Source: a virus
DNA: 47,766 nt
Strand: one strand, 5' to 3'
IMG/VR virus record: IMGVR_UViG_3300037234_000357
Location: 1-47,766 of that record
Shown: piece by piece, positions 18,736 through 23,608 of the stretch
Position numbering within the stretch: position 1 is the stretch's first letter
Layout: every line of letters starts with the position of its first letter
Notes under the pieces: model-generated
Database searches by the model: none
What the model was told of the DNA's origin: nothing
The model's input: only the letters and a program-made list of their open reading frames with translations
Position numbers and translations under genes: made by a program

Positions 18736-19881
18736 CTATGCTATTGTTCCACAAGGTATATATCTAGTTAAACCGCCGGGTATTGTCACTTTTATAAAGT
18801 GAGTTGTTGTTAATACCTTTGCTGCAATAGCTTCAATAGGATTACCTGTGCCTATCACTGTATTAAATTCTATCATTTCTTCACTCAGATTTGCCTGATC
18901 TAAATATAGTGTTGGAATAGCATTTGCGACAGACGCTTGATCTACATGAAGCTTACCTAGTGATGTTGTTGTGCCGATGCAGACGTTGCCTGATGCGTCG
19001 ATACGTACCTTCTCAGCTAATGAACCATTTAAGTTAGTGTCAAAATGAATATAACCTTCTTCTGCGCCATTAGTATTCACGGCAACACCAGCACCAAACT
19101 GAGCATAAGGAGTTTCGTTAGTATCCGAATCTTGTGCCATAAATCTAATACTAGCTATATTGCCAATAAATGGCGAGGCAGTACTTCGTATTAATAATTC
19201 TCTATTTGAACTTGTAGTTTCAAGATCAAATAGAGTTTCCCCTGCAACCTTAACATGTAATCTCGACGAAGGGCTACTTGTACCGATGCCGACGTTGCCA
19301 CCACTATCTAAAACTAATTGATTTGCGGTTGAGCCTAAAGTTAGATCACCTGACTCAACATCCAATATATTATTACCATACCTTAATGCTGTGCCTGATT
19401 CTGGTTGTAACAACCATGATGCATTACCAGCACCATTATCCTCAGAAGCCATTTGTATCTTGTTCGCTGCTGCTGCTCCAAGTGTGCCATTGACTATTGT
19501 AAGGCTAGCAAGGTTTGTTATGGAGGTTATGTCGGCATTGGTTCCATTCTGGGCTAAATCATCAACCATTTTCTTTGTCATTCCGAGCAACATCTTGTAT
19601 GTTTTTCCAGCCGCGTTCTTAGTGGTGGCCGCTGTCCCCTCCTGCGCCCTTAAGATACTATTTAGCGTATCAGTTGATCTCCCTGGCACCCTTATTATCT
19701 CAACAGACGGGTCATCAGACGGATCGGCATAATCAGTAGAATTCCACCAAACCAAATTGTATGGAAATGTAGAAGGTAGCTTTGCGCCCTCTCCACTACT
19801 CAACACGATTGTAGTTTCAATATCATCGTATCCTGTTGAAACTACAACTTTTCCAAAATTAACTACTGGATCTAATGCCAT
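18736..19881 (-). CDS. Tail fibre / receptor-binding-like protein
   Basis: 381 aa, starting MALDPVVNFGKVVVSTGYDD. Start 19881 is set by AAGGAGT upstream. The N-terminal 130 residues resemble virion-attachment modules (SILRAQEGTAATTKNAAGKT). Then come two copies of the beta-helix-type repeat GNVGIGTSSPSSRLHV and GNVCIGTTTSLGKLHV, found in many phage fibres ahead of a chaperone domain; no peptidase S74 domain follows. Likely host recognition. Confidence 0.8.
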   Translation of the reverse strand: MALDPVVNFGKVVVSTGYDDIETTIVLSSGEGAKLPSTFPYNLVWWNSTDYADPSDDPSVEIIRVPGRSTDTLNSILRAQEGTAATTKNAAGKTYKMLLGMTKKMVDDLAQNGTNADITSITNLASLTIVNGTLGAAAANKIQMASEDNGAGNASWLLQPESGTALRYGNNILDVESGDLTLGSTANQLVLDSGGNVGIGTSSPSSRLHVKVAGETLFDLETTSSNRELLIRSTASPFIGNIASIRFMAQDSDTNETPYAQFGAGVAVNTNGAEEGYIHFDTNLNGSLAEKVRIDASGNVCIGTTTSLGKLHVDQASVANAIPTLYLDQANLSEEMIEFNTVIGTGNPIEAIAAKVLTTTHFIKVTIPGGLTRYIPCGTIA

Positions 19882-19991
19882 TTGCAATACTCCTTATAAA
19901 ATTGTATTATATCAGCTTTCTTATTAAAATCACTCGAATCGCTAAAATCCGAATTCATATGAAGCAATAACTTTGTATTTGCATCTGGCAT
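19872..19991 (-). pseudogene. LamG-like N-terminal stub (39 aa)
   Basis: ATG 19991 begins MPDANTKLLLHMNSDFSDSS and ends after DFNKKADIIQFYKEYCKWH at a TAG that overlaps the next gene's start. DANTKLLLHxDxxFxDSS is the typical opening of phage LamG/concanavalin-like tail domains, which should run for another 150 residues or more. It therefore looks like the leftover 5' end of a lost tail gene, though a functional leader peptide cannot be excluded. AAGGGG lies 10 bases upstream. Confidence 0.55.
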
Positions 19992-20098: not shown

Positions 20099-20308
20099 TT
20101 ACCCGGCCTTCGGTCTGTTTTTCCAAACGTCCACGCCACCTAATGCGGCAATCAATGTTTCAGCCGTAATCGTCCCGGCGGTCATAGGTTCCATTAAAAC
20201 GGCGTGTGCAATATCAATCGTGGCTATGGCTACTACACAAAATATAACAACGGCCATACGCCGCGCGCCCATAACTGGTTTTCTTACTGTCTTTTTAATT
20301 TTTTCCAT
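20099..20308 (-). CDS. Small membrane protein, holin candidate
   Basis: 69 aa, MEKIKKTVRKPVMGARRMAV. A basic N-terminus precedes a hydrophobic helix (about 17-37, RMAVVIFCVVAIATIDIAHA) and a second weaker apolar segment (ITAETLIAALGGVDVWK) before a charged end. It overlaps the hydrolase gene by 14 bp. Size and topology fit a holin or other lysis membrane protein, which is inference. Confidence 0.65.
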   Translation of the reverse strand: MEKIKKTVRKPVMGARRMAVVIFCVVAIATIDIAHAVLMEPMTAGTITAETLIAALGGVDVWKNRPKAG

Positions 20309-20912
20309 TACTTAGTTTTACTTTCCCCATAATTGAACGCATACACCCGGATAAAACGGGGTAATGATCTACAAAACCACTGTGGCCCCATTTAACAAAA
20401 TACTGCGTTAGGTTCGGGCCTTCGTGTTTGAATTTATAACGCCCGGCGGAACCCATACCATAAAACCGGGCCAACCATACCACGTTATCGTTAACGGACG
20501 CGAAATTATAAACCATTGTGGCCGGGTGCTTCGTCCACCTGTAATTACGTTTGATTGGACACCCCAATAGTATGAGATTATCAACCCTGAACATAGGCCA
20601 TTTCTTCCTTGGCTTCAATCTCATATCCATGGCTATACGCGCCGCCCGTGTCCCATTAGAATGAGCTATAATAATTATGCGAGCGTTAGGGTACTGAAGG
20701 CATATACCATTAAGACGGGCCGCAATGTACTTAGCGGTCATCCTCCGGGTACGGCCTCGAATATTGAAAATCGTTAGTAATTTTTCATACCTTAAATTTA
20801 TGAATGTGCAATTATCCATAAACTCTTCTTGGCTTAAAAGATAGCTTAAATCAGCCATGTTTTTACCAATGGACTCTTGACCGTGGATCGTTATAACAAC
20901 TGTTTTAACCAT
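20295..20912 (-). CDS. Alpha/beta-hydrolase (serine esterase/lipase-like), lysis candidate
   Basis: 205 aa, MVKTVVITIHGQESIGKNMA, with AAAGGATAG upstream. The fold begins with VVITIHG and has the nucleophile elbow IIAHSNGTRAA, with Ser near residue 85 in AHSNG (a GxSxG variant). Asp142 in VNDNVVW and His176 in KWGHSGFVDHY are plausible triad partners. No signal peptide is visible. The family cleaves esters; LysB of mycobacteriophages is a phage example, but this protein is too remote to call LysB. Its pairing with a small membrane protein suggests lysis or envelope attack. Confidence 0.75.
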   Translation of the reverse strand: MVKTVVITIHGQESIGKNMADLSYLLSQEEFMDNCTFINLRYEKLLTIFNIRGRTRRMTAKYIAARLNGICLQYPNARIIIIAHSNGTRAARIAMDMRLKPRKKWPMFRVDNLILLGCPIKRNYRWTKHPATMVYNFASVNDNVVWLARFYGMGSAGRYKFKHEGPNLTQYFVKWGHSGFVDHYPVLSGCMRSIMGKVKLSNGKN

Positions 20913-20938: not shown

Positions 20939-22210
20939 TTAAAACAATTCACGCCAAAGAGCCGCACATTCTATTGTGGCACTATTTGCGCTTTTCCCGG
21001 CAATAGTCAATGTTTCATTATGTTTTAAAATAACTCTAAAAGGAGTCAAATCAAAATTGGTTTTATCATTTTTTCCTGCAAGCGGAAAAACCGCAATTTC
21101 TTTTCCCCCTGTTACCGTAGTCCCGGCAACATCTATCTCAACAACACTGTTAGTTGTATTAATATCCAAATATGAAGGCGTTCCGCCTAGCGTTGCATTT
21201 TTAATAAGCCTTACACTTCCAAGATTATTCGCCGAACTCGCCTCAATAGATGCCAGAACATTTTCAATAAAAATATCTATAAAATTTGATTTAGACGCAT
21301 AGGTGTTTTTATTTCTAATTGTAAAAATAGCAACTTCTGTAGTTACGGCTGTCTTTTGCTTTAGACCAGATGAATTTTGTGGTTGGTGTAATTCAATAAA
21401 AGTAGTTCTTCCTTCTGAGAAATAACCAAATGAAGAAGATTTTACTATAATATTACTTGCTGTGGCCTTATTTGCGGCCCACATAATAAAATGAAAATTC
21501 GGATTATGAACCGATGGTTCTATATACTTGTTAGCATATTTTATCATATGAACAAGTATGAAATCACCAGTAGCACTATCTTCAATGAAAAATCTAATAG
21601 CACCAGCACCAAGATATTGATACCTTATTTGAAATACATTAAGATTCGTATGAATCAATGTCATGCCGCTAGGGTTTTTGGTGCCTGCCCCTAATGTATC
21701 AACATTCCAACTTGATTGATCTACTGCAATAAGAGTGTCATTGCTCCATCGTTGTATACCAAAAGCAGTACCAGTATACCCAAAAGAGTATCCATTTCTG
21801 AACGCAAAAGAGCTTCCAGGCACATCCATTACACCGACATATTGTTCTGTACCTGCTACAGGAGAAGTAAATAAGGCGGTAAATCTTGCAACACCTCCTA
21901 TGCCTGATCTGTATTTTGCATGCCTGTAGCTTTCCAGCATACCACTACTACTAGTGGTAGTTGAAGTACTAATAACCGCCATTGCTGAAGACTGTGTTAT
22001 GGTTCCCCCATTAACTACGGTATTTTCGGTAAGGTCGGTATTGTCTACAGTATACTCAAAACTATTCTGGAATTGAGGATATAATTGCCCTACTAGGTTT
22101 TCTCCAAAAGCTGTTTTTTGCGGTTGATCTGGTGGAATAAATAAACCGTAAGACGGTGTAGCAAATGCAAATAAGCAAGCAAATAATATACTTAAATGTA
22201 ATTTTTTCAT
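20939..22210 (-). CDS. Signal-peptide-bearing virion-type surface protein
   Basis: 423 aa. The first 22 residues are a Sec-type signal (MKKLHLSILFACLFAFATPS, then YG). The mature part has QLYPQFQNSFEYTVDNTDLT, SYRHAKYRSGIGGVARFTAL and QIRYQYLGAGAIRFFIEDSA. I recognise this pattern from surface or fibre proteins of environmental viruses, where no signal peptide is expected. It is beta-rich, with Thr/Ser runs. A 5' AAGGAGAAAAAT precedes the start. Whether it is exported or packaged cannot be told from sequence. Confidence 0.75.
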   Translation of the reverse strand: MKKLHLSILFACLFAFATPSYGLFIPPDQPQKTAFGENLVGQLYPQFQNSFEYTVDNTDLTENTVVNGGTITQSSAMAVISTSTTTSSSGMLESYRHAKYRSGIGGVARFTALFTSPVAGTEQYVGVMDVPGSSFAFRNGYSFGYTGTAFGIQRWSNDTLIAVDQSSWNVDTLGAGTKNPSGMTLIHTNLNVFQIRYQYLGAGAIRFFIEDSATGDFILVHMIKYANKYIEPSVHNPNFHFIMWAANKATASNIIVKSSSFGYFSEGRTTFIELHQPQNSSGLKQKTAVTTEVAIFTIRNKNTYASKSNFIDIFIENVLASIEASSANNLGSVRLIKNATLGGTPSYLDINTTNSVVEIDVAGTTVTGGKEIAVFPLAGKNDKTNFDLTPFRVILKHNETLTIAGKSANSATIECAALWRELF

Positions 22211-22648: not shown

Positions 22649-23608
22649 TCAGGAAACACCGGTTATCAATCGACCTGCACCTACAAAAGTATAGACTGTA
22701 TCCGTGTTCTGCCTTGCTCTGAAAACATCAGACCTATTGGATTCAGCCCTATACTGTTCAGTCATTATGTTTTCTGGGCTATCACCTGTCCATAGCATAG
22801 TACGACCAAATGAAGGCTCTTTTAAATCTCTACCACTAGACACCTTATACAGGCCACATATAGTATTTGTCCATACATCAGTTAAAGATTTAGATTGACC
22901 CTTTTTCGCCGCGTCTACCTGCGCATCTGCAATTATAACCTCATCAACACCAAAGTATGAAGCTAGGATCGCTAACTGTGCTGCTTCTCCGCCCAACTCG
23001 ATAGGATTGGTATATTTCAATGCATCTGTAATCTCGGCAGTTAGCAAGAGATCGTTTTTACTTGCGTCTGAAATTACCATAACATTCGGCTTGATACCAA
23101 ACCCTGAACGCATGGCTTCCTTCGCCGCCAGTACATCAATTCTCGGCGTTGCTGTAGCGGCTGTACTCCATGCAACGGCTGCTGCCGCATTAGCAATGGA
23201 AGCAGTTGCAAGTGCCAATGCAACTGATCTTTGCTCCTGCTTACGCAAGATAACATCAACTGAACGCATAACAGCAATTGCCTCCGCGTCTATCTGCGCA
23301 TCGCCATAAAGCGTACGCTCTGAATCATCAAGTAATTCCTCAAAACCATCTTCCTCACAGGAATAGGTCTGCTTTTTGAAGGTGTAATCAGACCTATTAT
23401 ATGCAGCCCTTGGCGCACGTCTAGTTTTCTGAGATTTTAAGAAACTTTCCACGGTAATCACCGGGTATTCACCTTCTTTCTTTGGAGTCTGAAACGTAGG
23501 AAAAATTCTCAATCCTACAAACCCACGCTGTGAAGCTTCCATTGCATATTCCCATGCAATGGTTCCTAAATCATTTCTGACAATAGCCGTTGTTTCTGGA
23601 CTTGGCAT
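22649..23608 (-). CDS. Major capsid protein
   Basis: 319 aa, MPSPETTAIVRNDLGTIAWE, with GGGAGG upstream. It fits lambda E-type HK97-fold capsids: an N-arm, FKKQTYSCEEDGFEELLD, an Ala-rich helix (ALALATASIANAAAAVAWST), FGIKPNVMVISDASKNDLLL and a C-terminal VFRARQNTDTVYTF. Location after the protease/scaffold and decoration genes is the expected one. Slightly shorter than lambda E (341 aa). Confidence 0.9.
   Translation of the reverse strand: MPSPETTAIVRNDLGTIAWEYAMEASQRGFVGLRIFPTFQTPKKEGEYPVITVESFLKSQKTRRAPRAAYNRSDYTFKKQTYSCEEDGFEELLDDSERTLYGDAQIDAEAIAVMRSVDVILRKQEQRSVALALATASIANAAAAVAWSTAATATPRIDVLAAKEAMRSGFGIKPNVMVISDASKNDLLLTAEITDALKYTNPIELGGEAAQLAILASYFGVDEVIIADAQVDAAKKGQSKSLTDVWTNTICGLYKVSSGRDLKEPSFGRTMLWTGDSPENIMTEQYRAESNRSDVFRARQNTDTVYTFVGAGRLITGVS

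Follow-up and report, generated by a model that had tools for sequence, protein, structure and literature searches.

To our knowledge, the virion proteins of tailed phages are taken to be cytoplasmic. A gene in the viral DNA described here, which appears to place a Sec signal peptide (SP) in front of a virion-type protein, raises the question of whether such a protein is exported and, if so, what it would do outside the cytoplasm. Virion proteins made with a Sec SP are known from filamentous phages (pIII and pVIII); these are ssDNA phages, assembled at the membrane and extruded without lysis, and they lack the head-tail gene order of tailed dsDNA phages. Exported accessory proteins, such as lambda Lom, T5 Llp and N15 Cor, are in some cases encoded among structural genes, but they are beta-barrel, lipoprotein or small proteins and do not belong to virion families. 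We found no earlier report of SPs on tail fibers or nozzles in open-access papers. For hypervariable phage proteins, the absence of an SP has been used to support phage origin (PMC6199706).

A predicted signal peptide on a virion-type protein

The window, i.e., the whole stretch of DNA analyzed, comprises the 47,766 bases of a virus record. The gene and its parts are as follows:

20939..22210 (-), gene of the finding: predicted Sec SP and phrog_1645 virion-type protein, 423 aa
22220..22225 (-), Shine-Dalgarno sequence AAGGAG, 9-14 bases 5' of the ATG
22145..22210 (-), predicted SP MKKLHLSILFACLFAFATPSYG, with the cut placed behind residue 22 (the script preferred residue 17)
21413..22084 (-), first domain of the AlphaFold2 model (about residues 43-266), built of beta strands and similar to L-type lectins
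20945..21361 (-), C-terminal domain of that model (about residues 284-422), likewise all beta

The open reading frame begins with ATG and has 423 codons. It is a genuine gene with a strong ribosome-binding site and no usable internal start; since the next in-frame Met is residue 77, a start downstream of the SP is impossible.

The protein begins with MKKLHLSILFACLFAFATPSYG followed by LFIPPDQ. A rule-based scan found the features of a Sec SP cut by SPase I in this segment: a Lys-rich n-region, an uncharged h-region and a c-region of the (-3,-1) type. SP calls throughout this study come from this home-made scan and from comparison, not from SignalP, and gene starts in the loci were chosen by us. 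The scan recognized OmpA, MalE, TolC, PelB, LamB and PhoA and rejected LacZ. It gave the 20939-22210 protein a score of 5.77 (5.5-5.9 for OmpA/MalE/LamB), with the best cut between A17 and T18 and an alternative between G22 and L23. Only three of the 66 window genes passed, and the other two resemble plain membrane proteins. Chance passes were not rare, however: shuffling the protein gave a pass in 4.9% of cases, and among 271 internal-Met fragments 12 passed, so the SP call rests mainly on comparison. Here the evidence is strong, as SP character is retained across homologs whose SP letters are completely different. The initial annotation had read the first 22 residues as a signal peptide, and both lines of evidence agree with it. 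Sec export of the protein and its cleavage by SPase I are thus probable (about 0.85).

A lipoprotein reading was rejected. No lipobox of the form [LVI][ASTVI][GAS]C is present at the end of the h-region, and the sole lipobox-like string, LFAC at residues 9-12, lies in the middle of the h-region and has Phe in the second position. A need for disulfides was also discarded as a reason for export; passengers contain 0-3 Cys residues, the same as SP-less ones.

Downstream of the SP, residues 29-392 matched phrog_1645, "virion structural protein", in a profile search (E 2.3e-29, positions 48-401 of the 440-position model), in keeping with the earlier description of the rest of the protein as fiber- or surface-like. 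The AlphaFold2 model (overall pLDDT 76) is all beta beyond residue 30 and has a low-confidence helix for the SP. When compared by Foldseek, the first domain matched L-type lectins with E values down to 3e-7 and TM scores to target of about 0.5-0.6. The modeled N-terminal domain thus appears to share the fold of legume lectins and ERGIC-53, whereas sequence identity is just 8-15%. Viral matches of the model included haloarchaeal tailed viruses and giant viruses. With hits such as A0A2H4UVI4, A0A1X9VNN2, R4T8W4, R4T687 and A0A410N6U5, the lectin-fold family appears to extend from tailed phages to the tailed viruses of haloarchaea and the giant viruses of protists. The HFTV1 turret was not adopted as a homolog, the Foldseek match being a 418-aa HFTV1 protein that need not be the turret, and no relative of solved structure was found by sequence.

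Relatives without signal peptides

Members of phrog_1645 in cyanophages (Syn33_107, S-T4 AXQ70584.1 and RN05-S XYR95726.1) are late gene products homologous to nearly the whole passenger. In contrast to the window protein, with its predicted Sec SP before the domain, they start MAQWNK(N/I)xQDYLNQE... and lack an SP; the T4-like cyanophage relatives begin with MAQWNKNTQDYLNQE. A relative in a 485-kb uncultured phage (36.6% identity) starts MSTVFSQTDSG. Relatives from about 65 environmental contigs, like those of cyanophages and of a jumbo phage, showed no SP, and the mature N-terminus of the window protein resembles N-termini of SP-less relatives (e.g., L027). Nearly all relatives therefore bear out the premise of the initial annotation that phage structural proteins normally stay in the cytoplasm.

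In cyanophages, the slot between a conserved gene of ~105 aa and terL is occupied either by phrog_1645 (S-T4, RN05-S, Sf-CH8) or by phrog_8198 (S-SCSM1), a family without sequence similarity to the window passenger. The S-SCSM1 protein, gp031, is annotated as "virion protein". Mass spectrometry identified 45 virion proteins of this phage (PMC9602691), and we infer that the label derives from that set.

Signal peptide and cargo as exchangeable modules

The gene lies in a siphovirus-like late operon. It is preceded by genes for a lambda-type terminase, portal, S49 protease, major head protein and head closure protein, and followed by those for an alpha/beta hydrolase, a small membrane protein, a fiber, a major tail protein with an Ig-like domain and a tape measure protein. 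The neighbors used below are:

22649..23608 (-), major head protein, query for finding phage relatives
22229..22534 (-), head-tail attachment/head closure protein; the swap boundary is the 3' end of this gene
20295..20912 (-), alpha/beta hydrolase-like protein with an AHSNG nucleophile elbow and invariant Ser85, Asp142 and His177
20099..20308 (-), small membrane protein of the same cassette as 20939-22210
18736..19887 (-), the phage's own tail-fiber protein, without SP (phrog_18345/phrog_9942)

No virion gene of the window phage other than 20939-22210 carries an SP. Relatives of this phage, found through the major head protein, are metagenomic contigs; those of L104 and L105 were binned to Zixiibacteriota and Planctomycetota MAGs, respectively, where mis-binning is possible. 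L017 matches the window at 85-96% of DNA positions up to the end of the head closure gene, and the match resumes in the hydrolase; between these points a 289-aa phrog_8198 gene with an SP replaces the window gene. At the same locus, L018 and L104 have a phrog_1645 passenger with an SP, L021 has an SP in front of phrog_8198, L019 has a phrog_8198 protein without SP, and L020 has no such gene. The alternation of phrog_1645 and phrog_8198 is thus found here as well as in the cyanophage slot, where it suggests functional equivalence of the two families; the structure model of the phrog_8198 cargo was of poor quality.

Homology between L017 and L018 DNA in this region (79.7% over 74 bp, E 4e-12; z 10.1 versus codon-shuffled controls) is confined to the ribosome-binding site and SP, and the passengers are unrelated. 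In the window-L018 pair the reverse holds: the passengers are homologous from residue 29 on, just past the SP, and no SP homology is detectable. A common SP with unrelated cargo in one pair, and common cargo only in the other, imply exchange at the mature boundary. Judging from these alignments, SP and cargo are separate, exchangeable modules at this locus. The SP-less phrog_8198 protein of L019 in the same slot indicates that export is not essential there.

Recurrence in other phages

An alignment-based scan yielded 378 loci of the phrog_1645 family, the best 80 of which were read. SP-type N-termini among these 80 were found in L024 (=L018), L026, L030, L036, L037 and L064, and the SP-bearing set consists of the window and at least seven other contigs (L018, L104, L026, L030, L036, L037 and L064). 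On a tree of 69 passengers the SP state must change five times, and supported branches force four of these changes. The L036 and L037 proteins are 81% identical overall and have dissimilar SPs. SP-like starts also cluster: they occur in 8 of 50 genes neighboring SP members, compared with 9 of 446 near non-SP members (p 7e-5). In L030:711-5164 (G001:4899-9352), five consecutive fiber-like genes all have SP starts; one is a phrog_9942 tail fiber, the family of the window's own SP-less fiber. The initial annotation was right about an SP joined to a virion-type passenger and missed both the exchangeable SP module and its recurrence in unrelated phages.

Two of the five L030 genes have a common motif, QTKLGTTKxW, after the SP. 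A run of SP-bearing beta-helix/fiber-like genes was also observed in L063:229-3904, beside an SP-less phrog_1645 gene.

Tail nozzles with signal peptides

SP versions were also found for a different protein, tail tubular protein B (nozzle, phrog_376). These genes, whose SPs look cleavable, are:

L128:16990-19881 (G004:36490-39381), SP-bearing nozzle
L147:3414-6053, SP-bearing nozzle
L168:4028-6613, SP-bearing nozzle
L170:4019-6817, SP-bearing nozzle

In G004, the contig of L064, the nozzle (phrog_376, E 5e-176) starts with LKRALWVILLILLLVIPASA followed by AKIYDIW...GELTP. The gene has no alternative start and is the sole copy on the contig, and the MCP, portal/adaptor and tube A lack SPs. The second lineage comprises G011 (=L147), L168 and L169/L170; its SP letters are unrelated to those of G004, and its SPs directly precede the canonical ...(A/G)GE(L/I)SP start. 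A single-copy nozzle (G004 and G011) with an SP placed exactly before the normal N-terminus thus occurs in at least two lineages and is possibly more surprising than the 20939-22210 gene itself.

No SP nozzle was found among the other viral contigs read or the canonical isolates and MAG prophages checked. Readable nozzle N-termini with an SP numbered 0 of 10 in Planctomycetota and 0 of 17 in Pseudomonadota (from 392 and 398 genomes, respectively), and the SP nozzle was rejected as a general trait of Planctomycetota. In L170:7260-7934, an internal-virion-protein-like (gp14-type) gene adjoining the SP nozzle has an SP-like start.

Repeated gain of SPs by virion protein families, the use of one SP for unrelated cargo and the SP on a nozzle encoded only once all argue that export is a selected strategy in some phages. 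On this comparative evidence, selection has probably favored the export of adsorption-apparatus proteins more than once.

Possible roles of the exported protein

In the reading that we favor, the 20939-22210 protein would be a virion-type adsorption or decoration protein with a lectin-like fold that is exported by Sec and loses its SP, which would leave outside the cytoplasm a mature form equivalent to an entire, ordinary family member. The SP would serve as a movable address tag, attached to proteins of phrog_1645, phrog_8198 and phrog_9942 as well as, among podovirus-like phages, to the nozzle. Until lysis the tagged pieces would be stored at the cell surface or in the periplasm; they would then meet DNA-filled particles, whose completion or coating would be the last assembly step. 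Such late attachment is plausible on biochemical grounds, given that P22 tailspikes and T4 fibers can join completed particles in vitro. In addition, an SP on an essential single-copy nozzle is hard to explain as a decoy, and we therefore lean to a virion-destined, late-joining role, at slightly under even odds and less firmly than to export itself.

An exported lectin-fold protein that is not a virion part, however, could bind surface glycans or receptors on the dying host and, displayed or released, act as an adhesin or decoy that blocks superinfection or keeps phages from wasting themselves on debris and host cells. Its modeled fold suits this role, as do the other members of its cassette (alpha/beta hydrolase, lipoproteins, SP-Fn3 proteins and a small membrane protein), which was seen in two unrelated backbones; moreover, the phage has its own SP-less fiber and the cargo swaps fast. 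Yet the locus is a late head-tail operon rather than an early or lysogeny region, the SP on an only nozzle copy would be left unexplained, and the slot also accepts the SP-less homolog of L019. We consider such an envelope role a real possibility, at clearly less than even odds. Late joining meets difficulties of its own: nozzle export would leave filled heads unplugged until lysis, the lipoprotein and SP-Fn3 genes fit an envelope role, and both the SP-less state of the other virion genes of the window phage and the SP-less homolog in the L019 slot speak against it. The initial annotation had proposed display on the host, superinfection exclusion or coating of released particles, and the sequence is compatible with each of these. 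The late operon position and the SPs on single-copy nozzles favor a virion-linked role over classical exclusion.

It is improbable that the N-terminal hydrophobic element is no export signal at all, whether it stays uncut to anchor the protein in a membrane, forms a helix inside the virion or is simply a neutral addition. Passage of 4.9% of shuffles through a simple scan and the low-confidence helix of the AlphaFold2 model are compatible with this, but Lys/Arg n-regions, uncharged cores and small -1/-3 residues recur in many unrelated SPs, DNA was exchanged at the SP/mature boundary, and the element directly precedes the canonical nozzle N-terminus. An ordinary moron, i.e., a late accessory gene of the lambda Lom/T5 Llp type with a virion-derived domain in this phage only, would account for an accessory slot whose content varies while the head and tail genes on either side are conserved, and similar slots hold OMP-like SP proteins in L036/L037. 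The same passenger families, however, occur with SPs in several unrelated phages, as do essential tail parts, making this the least credible reading, with very little chance of being correct.

Extended from late joining of the window protein to phages at large, the favored reading would have some tailed phages make adsorption parts (decoration proteins, fibers, spikes and even the nozzle) via Sec, outside the cytoplasm, with the particle completed at lysis; we regard this wider claim as tentative and rather unlikely. If true, it would amount to a two-compartment assembly route for tailed phages. Host-contact machinery made partly outside the compartment of particle assembly may follow from added SPs, and exported adsorption proteins bear on assembly, superinfection and the annotation of SP-bearing viral genes in metagenomes.

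Other genes of the cassettes

The alpha/beta hydrolase gene, possibly a lipase for lysis, is linked to SP-bearing fiber genes in two different phage backbones and was observed in the window, L017, L018, L104 and L109-L111; it had no match among phage isolates. The cassette linked to the hydrolase, with a small membrane protein, a lipoprotein and either SP-phrog_8198 or SP-Fn3, is also present in L109-L111, phages whose large-terminase-like gene differs from that of the window phage; phrog_8198 lies behind an SP in L109 and L111. The lipoprotein, perhaps spanin-like, belongs to a conserved phage family (L018:9850-10272, L019:8235, L020:7984, L109:6844, L110:3309 and L111:5682) with a lipobox and then ...YQSxG...C...C. 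The SP-Fn3 genes of the cassette are L021:8574-8984 and L110:2042-2548, in which a fibronectin type III domain comes after the SP (Pfam fn3, E values of 2e-4 and 1.5e-6, respectively). SP proteins resembling small outer-membrane barrels, without a family match, are encoded between fiber and lysis genes, a lambda Lom-like position, in L036:7452-7997 and L037:5719-6348. In addition, small phage genes in L111:4415-4783 and L128:983-1237 have twin-arginine-like starts (MNRRGFIKM and MITRRNFIKG, respectively).
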